Source of the DNA: Candidatus Campbelliibacteriota bacterium
GTDB lineage: Bacteria > Patescibacteriota > Minisyncoccia > Phycocordibacterales > CSBR16-193
Assembly: GCA_007117035.1 (NCBI GenBank)
Contig: SKHG01000071.1
Span: forward strand, 1-34,150
Direction: 5' to 3'
Length of the DNA: 34,150 nucleotides
In this document: one piece after another, positions 1-19,908 of the stretch
How positions within the stretch are numbered: position 1 is the first letter of the stretch
Layout of the letters: the number at the start of each line of letters is the position of its first letter
Position numbers and translations under genes: made by a program
The notes under the pieces: generated by a model
Told to the model about the DNA's origin: nothing
Databases searched by the model: none
The model's input: the letters and a program-made list of their open reading frames with translations, nothing else

Positions 1-25
1 CTCAGTGCGTTGTGTCCGCTAGTAT
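1..25 (+). repeat. 3' end of a DGR variable repeat (VR/IMH), C-terminus of an off-window target gene (...SVRCVR*)
   Basis: ctcagtgcgttgtgtccgctagtat (1-25) is identical to 706-730 at the end of the template repeat; in the same frame both encode S-V-R-C-V-R-stop (tag at 20-22). Confidence 0.85.
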
Positions 26-56
26 TTCGGCGCTACTTTAAACTTTAATCCTTTTT

Positions 57-78
57 CCAAAACACGGTAGTGTTTTGG
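57..78 (+). promoter_or_regulatory. Hairpin downstream of VR, 9-bp perfect stem with GGTA loop (GRNA type), candidate DGR target-recognition hairpin/cruciform
   Basis: ccaaaacac-ggta-gtgttttgg; perfect stem 57-65/70-78. No equivalent hairpin follows the TR at 731 onward. Confidence 0.7.
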
Positions 79-100
79 TGTTGAAGAAAAAATTATCAAA

Positions 101-466
101 ATGGCAAAAAATTCTGAACTTAGAATATATAATTCAGCACTGTTTTTGCTAAAAGATATGTATGAGAGAATTCCAAAATTTAGCAAACAATACAAATATA
201 TATTGGGGGCGAGGATGATAGATTGCAATGTGGAATTAATCAAGGAAATTTCGGCCGCCAATCGGGCACGTCAAAAATCGATTAGATTAGAACATATTAA
301 TAAACTAATTAACATAACTGATGAAATGTTTGTCTATATAAGAATTGCCGAAGAATTAAAACAATTCAAATCAACTTCGGCATATCCGTATCTAATAGAG
401 AAATTAGCAGAAATTTCAAGGCAAGGAACGGGATGGAGAAAAATATATCTTCCCCAGAGTCGTTAA
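101..466 (+). CDS. avd: DGR accessory variability determinant (Avd-like, four-helix-bundle protein)
   Basis: 121-aa helical ORF between VR and TR; N-terminal pattern YNSALFLLKDMYERIPKFSKQYKYILGARM resembles Avd/S23-like helical bundles; position in a DGR cassette. Confidence 0.75.
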   Translation: MAKNSELRIYNSALFLLKDMYERIPKFSKQYKYILGARMIDCNVELIKEISAANRARQKSIRLEHINKLINITDEMFVYIRIAEELKQFKSTSAYPYLIEKLAEISRQGTGWRKIYLPQSR

Positions 467-577
467 TTTGCCTAATTAAAGAGTGTGGGAAAAGAAATAC
501 CACTATCTGCTCTCATGTAATATGTTTTATATTGTGTGAGGATAGCCGGTTATCAAGGAATAGTCAGATAGAATTAA

Positions 578-730
578 AATCGTTTCGCGAACAACACGAA
601 TTATTGGTCAGGTACTGAGAACAGTGCTACCAATGCGTGGAACGCGGAATGGAACGACAACAACGGCAACCTGAATACCAACAACAACGATAAGACTAAC
701 ACCAACTCAGTGCGTTGTGTCCGCTAGTAT
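578..730 (+). repeat. DGR template repeat (TR)
   Basis: In the VR frame 578-727 reads NRFANNTNYWSGTENSATNAWNAEWNDNNGNLNTNNNDKTNTNSVRCVR*, with 17 of 49 codons AAY (13 AAC). It ends in the 25-bp match to the VR end. The 5' boundary is uncertain (in-frame stop at 575-577). Confidence 0.85.
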
Positions 731-794
731 CTCTTTCCATCTCGTTTCTTGTTCTGAAGTTTTTGCTATCTCACCTCTGTTCCTAAATTATGAA

Positions 795-1880
795 ATGAAT
801 ACCATATTTACCTTTGAAAAACTATTCAGGGCCTATAAACAATGTCTAAAACACAAGAAAAATACTGCCAATGCTCTAAAATTTGAAATTGATAGGGAGA
901 AAAATTTGTCAAAATTGTTATATGAATTGCAAACTGGAAAATATAGAATTTCCCGACATATTTGTTTTGTTGTCACCCGTCCTGCTCCTCGTGAAATATT
1001 TGCCGCTGATTTCCGCGATAGAATAGTTCACCATCTCCTGTGCAATGAATTACAACAAATTTTTGAACGACAATTTTCTAATAATTCCTATGCCAACAGA
1101 AAAAATTTCGGTACCCATAAAGCCGTTAAAAAATTACAGTGGAATGTGTCCAGAGGAGGTGTTGATGGAAAAACGCTGTATTACCTAAAGATGGATATCA
1201 AGAATTTTTTTAGGAGTATTGATAAAAACATTTTATGGCGATTGGTTAAAAACAAAATTGAGATAGAGGACAGATCAATGTCGTGGAAAAATGAAGTATC
1301 GTGGCTTGCCCGAATGATAATTTTTCACAATCCAACCGACAATTATATTTTCAAAGGCAAAATTGCCACTAAAAAATTAATTCCGACCGAAAAATCCCTT
1401 CTATATGGCGACCGCTCAAAAGGGTTGCCCATCGGCAATTTAACAAGTCAATTTTTTGCCAATGTATACATGAACGAATTAGATTGGTTTGTGTTGAATA
1501 ATCTATGGACTGATAGATATTTTCGTTATGTAGATGACTTTATTTTATTAGATGAAAATAAAGAGAAAATTAAATTATGCGCCAAACAAATTTCTGTTTT
1601 CTGCCATAATTCCTTGAGTCTAAAAATATGCCCCACCAAAACAGTTTTGCGTGATGTTTGCCAAGGTGTTGATTTTCTTGGTTATTTCGTCAAACCAACC
1701 CATACCATAATTCGCCAAAAAGTTATAAAAAGATTTAAAATAAAATTCTCAAAAATTATAGATTCCGAAACTGGTTTTGTTGACACTAGAAATTTACCTA
1801 CAATTAAATCTTATTTCGGACATTTTTCGCATGCGAGCAGTTATAATTTGTGCTTGAAGTATGGGCTTATATTGGATTGA
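795..1880 (+). CDS. DGR reverse transcriptase (retron/group II-like RT family)
   Basis: RT motifs RYVDDFILL (catalytic YVDD) and GLPIGNLTSQFFANVYMNELD (DGR-like IGNLTSQ), also DIKNFFRSIDK. The likely start is ATG 795 (MNTIFTFEKLF); the track start at 717 is a GTG inside the TR. Confidence 0.92.
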   Translation: MNTIFTFEKLFRAYKQCLKHKKNTANALKFEIDREKNLSKLLYELQTGKYRISRHICFVVTRPAPREIFAADFRDRIVHHLLCNELQQIFERQFSNNSYANRKNFGTHKAVKKLQWNVSRGGVDGKTLYYLKMDIKNFFRSIDKNILWRLVKNKIEIEDRSMSWKNEVSWLARMIIFHNPTDNYIFKGKIATKKLIPTEKSLLYGDRSKGLPIGNLTSQFFANVYMNELDWFVLNNLWTDRYFRYVDDFILLDENKEKIKLCAKQISVFCHNSLSLKICPTKTVLRDVCQGVDFLGYFVKPTHTIIRQKVIKRFKIKFSKIIDSETGFVDTRNLPTIKSYFGHFSHASSYNLCLKYGLILD

Positions 1881-1932: not shown

Positions 1933-3960
1933 GTGAATAAATTCAATCTAAAATCTGAATATGCACCTGCAGGGGATCAACCTAAAGCTATTAAATCACT
2001 AACAAATGGCATAAATAATGGCTTAAAACACCAAACTCTTTTGGGTGTAACTGGTTCAGGAAAAACTTTTACTGTTGCAAATATTATCCAAGAAGTTCAA
2101 AAACCAACTCTTGTAATTGCTCATAATAAAACCTTAGCTGCACAGCTGGCTCAGGAGTATCAGGAATTTTTTCCAGAAAATGCTGTTCATTATTTCGTTT
2201 CATATTACGACTATTATCAGCCTGAAGCATATATGCCAGTTAGTGATACTTATATTGAAAAAGAAGCTCAGATAAATAAAGAAATAGAGCGTTTGCGTCA
2301 CGCTTCAACCCAAGCATTACTTACCAGAAAGGATTGCATAATTGTAGCTTCAGTATCCTGTATCTATGGTTTAGGTAGTCCAATTGAATATGAAAAGGTA
2401 AATCTTAAGGTAGAGAAATTCGGTAACCTTGGTCGGAAAGAGCTACTCACTCGCCTAATAGATATATATTTTGAAAGAACTAACGCTGATCTTTCTCCTG
2501 GTAAATTTAGGATGATTGGTAACACTCTTGAAGTTATGCCAGTTAACGAAAAGAAAATATACCGAGTTATTCTTTCAGAGCAGACAGTTTCTAGGATTGA
2601 TACCGTTGATCCAATTTCGCGTGAGTTTATTGATGAGGATTTGAATAGTTTTTTCTTGTTTCCAGCCAGACATTTTGTGACACCCAAAGAAGAGGTGAAA
2701 AGAGTAACGTCTGATATTGAAAAAGAATTAAAGATTCGCTTAAAAGAATTAGAAAAATCAGGTAAAATTTTGGAGGCCGAAAGATTAAGGCGTCGAACCA
2801 AATATGACCTTGCTATGATCAGAGAGGTTGGTTACTGTAACGGGATTGAAAATTATTCCAGGCATTTTTCGGGTCGAAGTGAAGGGGAGGCTCCAGACAC
2901 ATTACTATCATATTTTCCGCACAAAAAAGATGGAACTCCAGATTTTTTAACAGTAATTGATGAGTCGCATGTTACCGTGTCTCAGATTGGTGGAATGTAT
3001 GCTGGTGATCGTTCACGAAAAGAAACGTTGGTTGAGCATGGTTTTCGTTTACCATCTGCTAAAGACAACAGACCATTAAAATTTGATGAATTTGAAAAAA
3101 GAGTTGGTCAAAGAGTTTATACTTCTGCTACACCAGGAAAGTATGAATACGAAAAAAGTGAAAAAATTGTAGAACAGATAATCCGACCGACAGGTTTGGT
3201 TGATCCAAAGATTAAAATAAAAGGAATTTTTGAGAAAGGAAAATACCCTGGACAGATTAAGGATTTAATTTTAGAGACTGAAAAAGCGATCAGTAAAGGT
3301 GGTAGGGTTTTGGTTACAACCTTAACTAAAAAAATGGCTGAAGACCTTTCGTTGTACCTAAAAGAAAGGTCGATTGAAAGTCGTTATTTGCACAGCGATA
3401 TTAAAACAATTGATCGAATCGAAACACTAACTGCATTCCGTCGTGGTGAATTTGATTGCTTGGTTGGAGTCAATCTGTTGCGTGAAGGTTTGGATTTACC
3501 AGAAGTAACACTGATTGGTATATTAGACGCTGACAAAGAAGGTTTCTTACGTTCTGAGACTTCTTTAATTCAGACGATTGGTCGAGCTGCAAGAAATGTC
3601 AAAGGTCGAGTTATTCTGTATGCCGAGAAGGAGACTAACTCAATGAAAAAAGCGATTGATGAGACTAATCGTCGCCGTGCTGTTCAAATAGAATATAATA
3701 AAAAAAATGGAATCACTCCCAAGACAATCAAGAAAGAAATTCACGATATAACAGAAAGATTAGATCGTGAATCAGAAAAAAGAGGTAGTTTTTTGGCAGA
3801 GTTAGATTCCGCGGTTAGTGGTAAAAAAATCAAAGACCTTATTAAATTGAAGGAACGTCAGATGAATGATGCAGTCAAAGTTCTTGATTTTGAGACGGCC
3901 TCAATTTTGCGAGACGAACTTAAGGAGTTGTTTAGGCTTAGTTCCAAGGATAGAAGTTGA
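1933..3960 (+). CDS. uvrB: Excinuclease ABC subunit B
   Basis: 675 aa; GVTGSGKTFTVANII, YYDYYQPEAYMP, TSATPGKYE, QTIGRAARN, C-terminal UVR motif LKERQMNDAVKVLDFETASILRDEL; GTG start. Confidence 0.98.
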   Translation: MNKFNLKSEYAPAGDQPKAIKSLTNGINNGLKHQTLLGVTGSGKTFTVANIIQEVQKPTLVIAHNKTLAAQLAQEYQEFFPENAVHYFVSYYDYYQPEAYMPVSDTYIEKEAQINKEIERLRHASTQALLTRKDCIIVASVSCIYGLGSPIEYEKVNLKVEKFGNLGRKELLTRLIDIYFERTNADLSPGKFRMIGNTLEVMPVNEKKIYRVILSEQTVSRIDTVDPISREFIDEDLNSFFLFPARHFVTPKEEVKRVTSDIEKELKIRLKELEKSGKILEAERLRRRTKYDLAMIREVGYCNGIENYSRHFSGRSEGEAPDTLLSYFPHKKDGTPDFLTVIDESHVTVSQIGGMYAGDRSRKETLVEHGFRLPSAKDNRPLKFDEFEKRVGQRVYTSATPGKYEYEKSEKIVEQIIRPTGLVDPKIKIKGIFEKGKYPGQIKDLILETEKAISKGGRVLVTTLTKKMAEDLSLYLKERSIESRYLHSDIKTIDRIETLTAFRRGEFDCLVGVNLLREGLDLPEVTLIGILDADKEGFLRSETSLIQTIGRAARNVKGRVILYAEKETNSMKKAIDETNRRRAVQIEYNKKNGITPKTIKKEIHDITERLDRESEKRGSFLAELDSAVSGKKIKDLIKLKERQMNDAVKVLDFETASILRDELKELFRLSSKDRS

Positions 3961-14932: not shown

Positions 14933-16579
14933 ATGAAATTAACAGATAGTAAAATTAAAAACATACTATTAGAAGGTAATTATATTACAGAGGAGGATTT
15001 ATCTAGAGCAGAAAAGAGTGCTGAAAAACAAAAAAATTCAGTACTCGATTACTTGCTTTTCAACGATTTAATTACTAAGGATATTGTTGGTCAGGCTATA
15101 TCTGAATATTATAATATACCTTATTCAGATCTAAACTCATTTGTTCCAGCAAAAGATCAAGTTCTAATTATTCCTAAAGATCAAGCCAAAAACTTAAGAA
15201 TAGTTTTATTTAATGAAGACAAATCTCAGGTAACTATCACAACTGATAACCCTACACAAGAAGATTTAAAGATTAAATTAAAAGATTTGTTCCCTGGAAA
15301 GAAAATAAAAATTTCTTATTCATTACCTGAAGACATTGATTCAATTTTGTCTTTTTATCAAACAGAGTTGAATACTAGATTTGTTGAAATAATAGAAAAT
15401 CAAAAAAAAGTAGCTCCAGAAATAATTGACCAAATTATTGAGGACGCATTAAATTTAAAGGTTTCTGATATTCATTGTGAGCCTCAGGATTCTTACGCTG
15501 TTGTTAGATTTAGAATTGATGGCATCTTGCATGATGTTGGAGAAATTCCTATAGAATATTTTGGCAATATTATTAACAGGATTAAGGTTCAAGCTAAGTT
15601 AAGAATAGACGTACATAATGTGCCTCAAGATGGTGCGATCCGTTACCAGATTCAAGACAATGACAGGCCTGTGGATATTAGAGTATCTGTTATCCCAACC
15701 TTAAATGGAGAAAAGGTAGTGTTGAGAGTTTTGTCTTCATATATTGGGTCATTAAATCTAGGTGAGATCGGACTATCTAAGGATCTTCAAGATAAGATTG
15801 TAAACAGTACTAAAAAACCTTTTGGAATGATTTTGGTTACGGGTCCAACTGGTAGTGGAAAAACTACTACATTATATTCAATATTAAGAAATCTTAATAC
15901 TAGAGAAGTTAACATTACTACTATCGAAGATCCAGTGGAATATAAGATTAAGGGTATAAATCAGATACAAACTAATCAGCAAACAGGCCTGACGTTTGCT
16001 AGGGGACTTAGGGCTATTGCCCGGCAAGATCCGAATATTATTTTGGTAGGAGAAATTCGAGATTCTGAAACAGCAGACATATCTGTTAATGCAGCCTTAA
16101 CTGGACATTTGCTACTTACAACCTTCCACGCAAATAATGCTCTCTCAGCAATTCCTCGTTTTATAGATATGGGTGTTGAACCTTTTTTACTCAGTTCTAC
16201 TCTAGAATTAATAGTTTCTCAAAGGCTTGTTCGTAGAATTTGTGACTCATGTAAAGTGAGTTATACAGTTAGCAAATCTGAAATTGATAAAATAAAAACA
16301 GGTCTCTCTAAACAATTTGGAAGTGGAGAAATTACTTTATATCGTGGTAAGGGTTGTGGTAGTTGTGCTGGCACAGGCTACAGAGGCCAAATTGGTATTT
16401 TTGAATTTTTGAGTATCAGTCCTGAAATTCAAGATCTTATTTCTAAGAATCCATCAACAATAGAAATCACAAAGCTCGCTGAGTCTGAGGGTTATAAAAA
16501 TATGTTTGAGGACGGAATAAGTAAAGTAAAGATAGGAATTACAAGTCTAGATGAGTTGTTGCGAGTTACTAATATATAG
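14933..16579 (+). CDS. pilB: Type IV pilus assembly/GspE-family ATPase
   Basis: GPTGSGKTTTLYSILRNLNTREVNITTIEDPVEY, RQDPNIILVGEIRDSETA, CDSC...CGSC zinc motif. Confidence 0.96.
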   Translation: MKLTDSKIKNILLEGNYITEEDLSRAEKSAEKQKNSVLDYLLFNDLITKDIVGQAISEYYNIPYSDLNSFVPAKDQVLIIPKDQAKNLRIVLFNEDKSQVTITTDNPTQEDLKIKLKDLFPGKKIKISYSLPEDIDSILSFYQTELNTRFVEIIENQKKVAPEIIDQIIEDALNLKVSDIHCEPQDSYAVVRFRIDGILHDVGEIPIEYFGNIINRIKVQAKLRIDVHNVPQDGAIRYQIQDNDRPVDIRVSVIPTLNGEKVVLRVLSSYIGSLNLGEIGLSKDLQDKIVNSTKKPFGMILVTGPTGSGKTTTLYSILRNLNTREVNITTIEDPVEYKIKGINQIQTNQQTGLTFARGLRAIARQDPNIILVGEIRDSETADISVNAALTGHLLLTTFHANNALSAIPRFIDMGVEPFLLSSTLELIVSQRLVRRICDSCKVSYTVSKSEIDKIKTGLSKQFGSGEITLYRGKGCGSCAGTGYRGQIGIFEFLSISPEIQDLISKNPSTIEITKLAESEGYKNMFEDGISKVKIGITSLDELLRVTNI

Positions 16580-16582
16580 TGT

Positions 16583-17710
16583 ATGTCTAAAATAAAGGTC
16601 AGAAAATCAGATCAAAATGAGGGTTTTAAATACCCAGTTTTTGACTATCGTCCTGATTGGCCGTATATAAGTATAGGTTTTGGTGATGAGAAAGACTACT
16701 TTATTGAAAACCTATCCTTACTTTTGGCTTCAGGTATGAGTATTTTGTCTGCACTAGATTCTATTGGGGAGTCAGTGAAGTCAAAAAAAATGAAAAAGGT
16801 AACAAAATTTATTACCGAGTCAATTAATGACGGCTTACCATTTTGGAAGTCTGTTGATAGTGCTAGAATTTTTCCTAAAAGAATTATTGCTCTAATTCAA
16901 TCTGGTGAAGAGGCTGGTAGGTTACCAGATCATTTAAATTTAGCTACTGCGCAGTTACATAAAGAAAAAGTTTTTAAGTCTCGTCTAAAATCTGCTCTAA
17001 TTTATCCAGGAATTGTTTTAACTCTGGCATTTATAATTGCTTTGGGTGCTTTTTGGTATATTTTACCCAATCTAGTTTTTCTATTTGATATAACAGAAAA
17101 AACACTACCTTTCAGTACACAGGTTTTGCTTTGGGTTGGTGTTTTCTTTGAGTCTTATGGATACATTTTTATTCCAAGTTTGATTCTGACTTTATTTATC
17201 ATAATTTATGTATTTTTCTTTAACAAAAGAACTAAATTTTTAGGTGATTTTTTCTTATTGCGACTTCCGGGAATAAAGAGATTAATTCAGGGTGTGGAGA
17301 TGGCTCGTTTCGGTTACACCTTTGGCGCACTTTTACAGTCGGGATTTCAGATTAATGAGTCTCTCGAATTAGTTAAATCAGGTACTGATTACGTAAGCTA
17401 TCAAAGATTCTATTCTCATCTACAAGAAAAGATAAATCAGGGTAATAGTTTTAAAAAGTCCTTGGATTCATATCCCAAGTCAGATCGATATATTAAAATA
17501 CCTATTCAGCAACTTATTATGGCTGCTGAAAGATCTGGAAGACTACCTGAAACATTAATCAAGATAGGAGTTATTTTTGAGGAGAAAACAGATGCTATGT
17601 CTAAAGACTTGGGAACTATAATAGAACCTGTAATACTAATAATTGTTGGTTTCGTGGTCGGATTTGTAGTTCTTGGAATAATTAGTCCGATTTATGACGT
17701 CTCATTTTAA
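16583..17710 (+). CDS. pilC: Type IV pilus inner-membrane protein (PilC/GspF)
   Basis: LSLLLASGMSILSALDSI...IQSGEEAGRLPDHL...GFQINESLELV...AAERSGRLPETL duplicated T2SSF pattern and three TM. Confidence 0.93.
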   Translation: MSKIKVRKSDQNEGFKYPVFDYRPDWPYISIGFGDEKDYFIENLSLLLASGMSILSALDSIGESVKSKKMKKVTKFITESINDGLPFWKSVDSARIFPKRIIALIQSGEEAGRLPDHLNLATAQLHKEKVFKSRLKSALIYPGIVLTLAFIIALGAFWYILPNLVFLFDITEKTLPFSTQVLLWVGVFFESYGYIFIPSLILTLFIIIYVFFFNKRTKFLGDFFLLRLPGIKRLIQGVEMARFGYTFGALLQSGFQINESLELVKSGTDYVSYQRFYSHLQEKINQGNSFKKSLDSYPKSDRYIKIPIQQLIMAAERSGRLPETLIKIGVIFEEKTDAMSKDLGTIIEPVILIIVGFVVGFVVLGIISPIYDVSF

Positions 17711-18152
17711 TTACAATAAACATAATCGCGGATTTTCACTAGCGGAGCTTGTAATCGTTATAGGAATTATAATTCTAATATTAGGAACATCTGTTTTTTC
17801 ATACAATAGTTTTCGTTCTTATAATAATTTGGAGATTGCTTCAGCAACAGTAGTAGAATCAATTCGTTATGCTCAAAATAACGCTAGGCAGGTCAATGGT
17901 GATTCAATGTGGGGTGTTAAAATAAATGCTACCGAGGTTGTTATTTTTAAAGGAGAAAATTATGAATCTAGAAATTTAAATAACGACAAGGTTTTGGTAC
18001 TTCCGCCGGGTATAACTGTTGGGAGTTTTAATGAAATTGTTTTCGAGAAGGTTAGTGGATCTACAGGAACCACAGGCTTGATAAATATTTCTAATAATAA
18101 TGACGAATTAGGTTTAAACGTTAATAGTTGGGGAACTATAATTTATGAATAA
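17694..18152 (+). CDS. Type IV pilin-like/pseudopilin protein (prepilin N-terminus)
   Basis: RGFSLAELVIVIGIIILILGTSVFSY. Confidence 0.88.
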   Translation: MTSHFNYNKHNRGFSLAELVIVIGIIILILGTSVFSYNSFRSYNNLEIASATVVESIRYAQNNARQVNGDSMWGVKINATEVVIFKGENYESRNLNNDKVLVLPPGITVGSFNEIVFEKVSGSTGTTGLINISNNNDELGLNVNSWGTIIYE

Positions 18153-18936
18153 TAAAGGATTTTCATTAGTTGAAATTTTAGTTGCAGTGTCCGTTTTTTT
18201 GGTGTTTTTTTTGTCATTAACAAATGTAATTTTTAGTTCTAGTAAAAAAATTGAGTATGCTACAAATAATGAGGTGGCTATATTTCTTGCTGAATCGGGT
18301 TTAGAGATAGTTAAGAACATTAAGGACGAGGATTTTAATAATCTACAAGAAGGGGTCTATGGTCTGGAAAGAAATTTAAATCAGTTTGAATTTATTAGTA
18401 GCCCCGAGGACATAGACATCTTTAGTCGTAGTATTATCATTTCCAATATTGATGAATTTGAAAAAAAAGTCGAATCAACAGTCAGTTGGGTTGATAGTTT
18501 TTCTGATCATAATTCCATTACTCTGACTACTTATTTTACAAACTGGGTTCAGGTATCAGATGCTGTATGTCTTGACCAGCAAGATTTTTTAGAGGTTTAT
18601 TTAACAGAGATACAAATAGCGGGTAACAGTAAATTAAATGGTATTTTGGTTGGTAGTTCGGCAATTGATTGTGAAATTATAATAGAACAAATGCAGGTGA
18701 GCTGGACTAGTTCAGGAAGAAGATTAAGGCATATAATTTTTGATGGTCTAGAAGTGTGGAGTGGAAATGTTAATTCTGGCACAGTAAAGAATATTGAATC
18801 TTATAGTATTAAAGAAGATCAGAATAATTTAATTGTTGACCTTGATTTTTCTGGAAATATCTCAAATGATACTTTCAGTATAACCTTCTTTATGTCTGAT
18901 GGAACGAGTAAAACAATAACTGATATTAAACCTTAA
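18145..18936 (+). CDS. Prepilin-like protein
   Basis: NKGFSLVEILVAVSVFLVFFLSLTNVIFSSSKKIEYATNNEVAIFLAESGLE. Confidence 0.88.
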   Translation: MNNKGFSLVEILVAVSVFLVFFLSLTNVIFSSSKKIEYATNNEVAIFLAESGLEIVKNIKDEDFNNLQEGVYGLERNLNQFEFISSPEDIDIFSRSIIISNIDEFEKKVESTVSWVDSFSDHNSITLTTYFTNWVQVSDAVCLDQQDFLEVYLTEIQIAGNSKLNGILVGSSAIDCEIIIEQMQVSWTSSGRRLRHIIFDGLEVWSGNVNSGTVKNIESYSIKEDQNNLIVDLDFSGNISNDTFSITFFMSDGTSKTITDIKP

Positions 18937-18941
18937 TAAAT

Positions 18942-19463
18942 ATGAAAAAGCATAAATTCAAAATTATAAATAATGATTCAGGTTTTACACTCGTAGAAAT
19001 TTTAATCTATATCTCAATTTTTAGTTTAATGGTTACAGGTTTAGCATCTTTAACCTTACTCATTAATCAATCAATGTCAGTTGCACAAAATAGAATAGAA
19101 GTTGATAGTCAGTATGTGGGAGCGATCAAGATAATGTCTCAGACTATTAGAGATAGTAAAGGTATAAACTCTCCATCGGTAGGTGCTCAATCTGATTCAT
19201 TAAGTCTAAAAACTATTGATTCATCTAAAAATCCAACAGTCTTTTTTGTAGATGAGGGGGTTTTGTATATCTCGGAAGGATTAGGTTCGCCCACACCTCT
19301 AACTAATAATCGTGTTTTAGTAGCTGACCTAGGATTTTATAATTTAAGCAGACCAAACACTCATGGATTAATTCAGATTGATATGACTGTAAATCAATTT
19401 GATTCTATACGTACTATGAATTTTAATTCAGTTTCTGCTGTTAGGAATAATGATGATAATTAG
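18942..19463 (+). CDS. Prepilin-like protein
   Basis: DSGFTLVEILIYISIFSLMVTGLASL. Confidence 0.88.
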   Translation: MKKHKFKIINNDSGFTLVEILIYISIFSLMVTGLASLTLLINQSMSVAQNRIEVDSQYVGAIKIMSQTIRDSKGINSPSVGAQSDSLSLKTIDSSKNPTVFFVDEGVLYISEGLGSPTPLTNNRVLVADLGFYNLSRPNTHGLIQIDMTVNQFDSIRTMNFNSVSAVRNNDDN

Positions 19464-19908
19464 AAAAAACATGACTAAAAAACTAAAAAAACACATAAAA
19501 GATATAAATTCTCAAATAATGTATTCAGGACATAAATCTGGTTTTGGTGTTTTGTATATTGTTATTATTATCGGTAGCATTTCACTTGGTTTAAGTTTAT
19601 GGCTATCAAGCAGTAGTTATTTTTCTGTAAATTCAGCTTTTAATAACCGTGATTCTGCTCAAGCTCGCTCTTTAATTAATGGTTGCGCAGAAATAACGCT
19701 TGATCGTATACGTCAAAACCAATCATACTCTGGTTTAGATGTAATAAATCTTTTAGACAACAGTTGTCAGATTGAGGTAATCCACGTTGACACCACTAGT
19801 AGAATAATTAAAGCCTATGTCGAGGTTGGTAGTAGTGTGCGAAAGCTTGAAATTTTGACTGATGGTTTTAATCCTATAAATATAGATTCTTGGATTGAGA
19901 TACCATAA
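19450..19908 (+). CDS. PilX-like minor pilin-like protein
   Basis: KSGFGVLYIVIIIGSISLGLSLWL followed by a pilus accessory-like body; lacks the canonical Glu5. Confidence 0.65.
   Translation: MMIIRKNMTKKLKKHIKDINSQIMYSGHKSGFGVLYIVIIIGSISLGLSLWLSSSSYFSVNSAFNNRDSAQARSLINGCAEITLDRIRQNQSYSGLDVINLLDNSCQIEVIHVDTTSRIIKAYVEVGSSVRKLEILTDGFNPINIDSWIEIP

Follow-up and report, generated by a model that had tools for sequence, protein, structure and literature searches.

At the left end of contig C45 of a Candidatus Campbelliibacteriota genome, a small ORF is found between two copies of a short repeat, and a gene for a reverse transcriptase (RT) follows them, ahead of the host gene uvrB. This arrangement raises the questions of whether these parts make up a diversity-generating retroelement (DGR) and which gene such an element would rewrite. 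An earlier note, prepared from the sequence alone, had proposed a DGR whose hypervariable target lies just beyond the contig edge. In the whole stretch of DNA that was analysed (34,150 nucleotides, herein called the window, which is contig C45), positions 1-1880 carry a DGR, with every component that could be tested present in the canonical order of variable repeat (VR) end, GRNA-loop hairpin, avd, template repeat (TR) and RT. The parts and the order that had been proposed thus both stand. The features are as follows.

1-25, plus strand: 3′ end of the VR, recognised by its exact match to 706-730
57-78, plus strand: hairpin or cruciform, from DNA folding
101-466, plus strand: avd, accessory variability determinant (121 aa), from a match to PF22296
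578-730, plus strand: TR, from its AAY codons, its fit to Lcl_C and similar TRs in related loci
795-1880, plus strand: DGR RT (361 aa), from RVT_1, a PDB match, motifs and a tree
1933-3960, plus strand: uvrB, the host gene to the right of the cassette and a synteny anchor outside the DGR, from its UvrB domains

The full reading that we consider very probable is of a chromosomal DGR, located between tgt and uvrB, that rewrites a target gene upstream of it at the 3′ end. The parts, how they are ordered and what they are homologous to, the join by synteny and, in relatives, exchange specific to adenines are demonstrated, and we infer that the DGR is active in this genome. The mechanism holds nothing new. 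DGRs are already established in CPR bacteria (PMC8144416; PMC10221324), and this is another of the well-known Patescibacteria sort.

Components of the cassette

The copies at 1-25 and 706-730 are identical over 25 bp and then diverge, and about 6e-6 such repeat pairs are expected by chance. They share a reading frame and a stop codon: the TR reads NSVRCVR-stop, and in the VR remnant the target gene closes with the invariant SVRCVR-stop, its TAG being at 20-22. Position 1 is the genuine left end of C45 (one of 81 contigs in an assembly of 812,790 bases), and because the window starts there, all of the VR except its last 25 bp is missing. This remnant is identical to the TR, without any mutated position. 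Searches of all 812,790 assembled bases for a VR, using DNA, the invariant end or an A-masked template pattern, returned the window copies only. Since the assembly lacks the VR body, adenine substitution is invisible in this genome.

The TR has an approximate 5′ boundary (578), the VR being missing. Seventeen of its 51 in-frame codons are AAY, which is the highest value in the window; stretches elsewhere on both strands average 2.8 and reach at most 13 per 51, in keeping with the AAY-dense template described previously. Adenines account for 51 of 147 bases, the reading frame is open, and if all TR adenines were mutable, 30 of 49 codons would vary to give about 10^28 proteins. The translation fits the Lcl_C profile (PF07603) through its last column, with an E value of 3.5e-4.

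A hairpin between the VR end and avd, which the earlier note had also listed, is indeed predicted by DNA folding as a 9-bp stem capped by a GGTA loop (CCAAAACAC-GGTA-GTGTTTTGG). Published DGR hairpins carry a GRNA loop on a GC-rich stem of 7-10 bp and are located 4-34 bp from the VR (PMC3240598). The loop in the window and its distance of 31 nt beyond the VR end fit this pattern, whereas the stem is AT-rich (GC in four of nine pairs), unlike those of the phage examples. Hairpins of at least 8 bp are present no more than 150 nt from the VR end at 8 of 15 related loci, compared with 9% of random stretches, and VR-end hairpins in related DGRs are frequent but not universal.

The small helical ORF at 101-466 can be identified as avd, as had been suggested: it matches Pfam PF22296 (bAvd) with an E value of 1.3e-11, over the gathering score, and NF033474 (Avd) with an E value of 1.7e-10, under the cut-off. 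It also aligns to the Avd ORFs of related DGRs, the closest four at 24-33%, and is too divergent from the Avd of BPP-1 for BLASTP, which returned no match between the two.

Reverse transcriptase, and adenine-specific exchange in relatives

The RT matches RVT_1 with an E value of 6.7e-16 and carries both motifs noted earlier, YVDD and IGNLTSQ, the latter within GLPIGNLTSQ. Its start is most likely the ATG at 795; a mechanical ORF call placed the start at GTG 717, which falls inside the template, and was set aside. The best PDB match is 8ub7 (E value of 1.5e-41), and entries 8ub7-8ube, named ‘Reverse transcriptase’, are structures of the BPP-1 DGR RT. Direct comparison of the RT with BPP-1 brt shows 31% identity over 352 aligned positions. 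In a tree of 39 rows, the window RT groups with DGR RTs and apart from three group II intron RTs with support of 100/100. Its position is inside a clade of 23 rows, mostly RTs of the same class, and its sister is the RT of genome G251 with support of just 90/95. The closest RT found is that of locus L036 (G251:C25), at 48%. Elsewhere among the relatives, a DGR RT match at L009:387-1448 (G303:C10) contains one internal TAA and is perhaps decayed or misassembled, and genome G091 has three DGR RTs (L042, L052 and L053, on G091:C11, C7 and C6), of which L052 and L053 are accompanied by VR-bearing ORFs.

Evidence that the machinery acts on adenines comes from the relatives. TR/VR pairs beside related RTs were found by a scan that allowed TR-A mismatches, and 15 related loci were then re-extended with symmetric scoring before the differences were counted. 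In these 15 DGRs, TR and VR differ at 252 of 630 adenines and at 25 of 1,629 other bases, and therefore the class of machinery to which the window RT belongs carries out adenine-specific exchange. The TR at L039, L040 and L041 is located downstream of the RT on the opposite strand, and at L040 and L041 TR and VR are moreover on opposite strands; cassette order therefore differs widely among kin.

The RT with Avd would copy the template transcript (578-730) into cDNA while placing random bases opposite adenines, and this cDNA would replace the 3′ end of the target gene upstream, with the shared 25-bp end (1-25) and the 57-78 hairpin as guides. The BPP-1 DGR has the same one-strand order (mtd-VR, avd, TR, brt) and likewise a hairpin with a GRNA loop after the VR, although the window stem is AT-richer. 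It differs in being phage-borne, whereas the window DGR is apparently chromosomal, and in having Mtd rather than an Lcl_C-type protein as its target. Viral contigs yielded no near relative of the window RT or TR, and therefore a phage origin is unsupported; a wider scan of genome contigs gave distant matches only, and neither Rfam nor a tRNA scan gave a hit in the window. Other parallels are the Patescibacteria (CPR) DGRs of clade 2, which share with the window a cellular location, a small genome, an Avd-type accessory gene and a C-type-lectin-like VR domain (PMC8144416). The DGR at L036 agrees with the window in the order of VR, TR and RT and in having an Lcl_C VR, but its Avd is between TR and RT, whereas the avd of the window is between VR and TR, and its target, unlike that of the window, is a type IV pilin-like protein.

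It is extremely improbable that the RT belongs to some other class (retron, DRT or group II intron) and that the 25-bp repeat is fortuitous or an assembly repeat. Generic RT models of those classes do score against the protein, but NCBIfam matches for them are far under their cut-offs, the top PDB match is the BPP-1 DGR RT, and both Avd and an AAY template adjoin the gene. For group II introns in particular, the reading is already refuted by the tree, which splits off the three group II RTs at 100/100, and by the motif, as the window RT has SQ (GLPIGNLTSQ) in place of the PQGG...SP found in those RTs. A less remote but still quite unlikely alternative is that the parts are homologous to those of a DGR while the element has decayed, either through loss of retargeting or because its target has no VR body. 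The absence of the VR body from the assembly is compatible with such decay, as is the stop inside the RT match at L009 of a related genome, so that decay may occur in the group. However, the RT and avd are intact and the catalytic YVDD is present, the TR retains an open frame, the SVRCVR-stop end and its richness in adenine, and both the hairpin and the 25-bp end have been kept.

The probable target gene across the contig gap

Extending the contig to the left, as the earlier note had recommended, had to proceed by synteny as C45 ends at position 1. In two relatives of the same family (G002 and G003), the genes LOG(−), tgt(+) and uvrB(+) are consecutive, and in a third (G001) LOG is followed by uvrB. 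In the present genome, uvrB comes directly after the DGR on C45 and the LOG gene is on contig C9, whose right end carries LOG(−), tgt(+), a gene for a peptidoglycan-binding protein of 357 aa, and finally an ORF that is truncated by the contig end. The search to the left thus leads to the right end of C9, and we infer that C9 and C45 abut.

The truncated ORF comprises 48 codons with a probably exported N-terminus (MKNTIQ...VYATGTLTPTGEPGDATHYSLKD). Against a profile of the N-termini of five relatives’ DGR targets, which contains no sequence from this genome, it scores with an E value of 1.9e-5 (next unrelated ORF, 0.22) and ranks sixth of 3,074, directly behind the five members; the ORF was chosen via synteny ahead of scoring, and the profile regions were picked once the resemblance was seen. 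One member, L045, yielded no TR/VR pair when scanned; it was admitted to the profile since it adjoins a DGR RT and has SVRCVR at its end. A four-copy motif profile could not separate the ORF from noise, whereas the longer five-target profile did. Used alone, the 48-aa N-terminus had no significant match across 384 genomes belonging to the class, and the resemblance thus depends on the five-target profile; a search of this genome with a relative’s full target returned nothing, and the Lcl_C profile gave nothing above the cut-off in the family and nothing in this genome.

Because of the LOG-tgt-uvrB synteny and the profile match of the C9 ORF, the cassette and its neighbour most likely sit between tgt and uvrB, with a predicted target that straddles the C9|C45 gap. 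Its first 48 codons would close C9, and its last seven codons, including the stop, would open the window and extend to position 22; targets in relatives are roughly 250-550 aa long. Synteny and the N-terminus that closes C9, which resembles those of DGR targets, thus both support the proposal of a target gene just left of the window.

A related possibility, which we judge to be quite unlikely, is that the DGR is real but that it targets one of two pilins cut off by the ends of other contigs, the target in G251 being an N-methyl pilin fused to Lcl_C. The closest RT relative (L036, 48%) does have a pilin-Lcl_C target, and pilin ORFs run off contigs C22 (G000:C22:1-171, L059) and C66 (G000:C66:2-205, L060). 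Nevertheless, synteny with G002 and G003 sets C9, rather than C22 or C66, beside uvrB, and it is the C9 ORF that fits the five-target profile. We thus retain the C9 ORF as the probable start of the target.

The place where C45 begins may itself be informative. The contig starts one base past the final adenine that precedes the shared end (TR positions 705/706), as would be expected if the VR were diverse in the sample. In addition, 14 of 29 related DGR RTs are no more than 2 kb from a contig end, where chance would give 6.2. Both observations are suggestive only, as C9 ends well short of the VR and some other cause must also have broken the assembly. The case shows that an assembly gap can remove a DGR target from a MAG and that synteny can bring part of it back.

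Probable target anchoring and neighbouring genes

The target is predicted to end in an Lcl_C (C-type-lectin-like) domain, and it presumably binds a host cell or a surface. The older name of Lcl_C is DUF1566. In human microbiomes, DUF1566 is the commonest domain of DGR targets (PMC4159848). DGRs are known in ultrasmall bacteria. Targets of clade 2 usually have no recognisable transmembrane segment, and Roux et al. (2021) did not settle whether the targets in CPR bacteria are membrane proteins (PMC8144416). In contrast, every target N-terminus inspected in the current study carries a hydrophobic leader, and one of them belongs to a pilin. Hydrophobicity is strong in the leader segments of the putative target of this genome and of six targets from relatives, and these proteins are therefore likely to be exported or membrane-anchored. 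An N-terminal leader together with a PA..YT(L/I)..IY motif is common to six targets.

We tentatively propose, while holding the idea to be somewhat doubtful, that the cellular DGRs of this class diversify exported, leader-anchored surface proteins (with leader plus PA..YT(L/I)..IY, or a pilin), sometimes beside an AWSENAGWI-repeat protein, as a host- or substrate-attachment module. If true, the leader-anchored target family would answer the published doubt as to the membrane nature of CPR DGR targets. The leader and motif in six targets, along with the pilin-fused target in the closest relative, make the membrane question testable.

At L036:220-912, Lcl_C is fused to an N-methyl (type IV pilin-like) protein to form the DGR target, a candidate hypervariable pilin. 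Repeat proteins of the AWSENAGWINF type adjoin the DGR in three genomes (L076:6581-7654, on C9; L037:1473-2811; L038:919-3310) and are possibly a recurring surface-protein neighbour of DGRs. Finally, the contig that carries the DGR also includes a type IV pilus-like operon at 14933-19908 of the window, in which a PilB/GspE-like ATPase, a PilC-like protein and several N-methyl pilins were recognised by eye.
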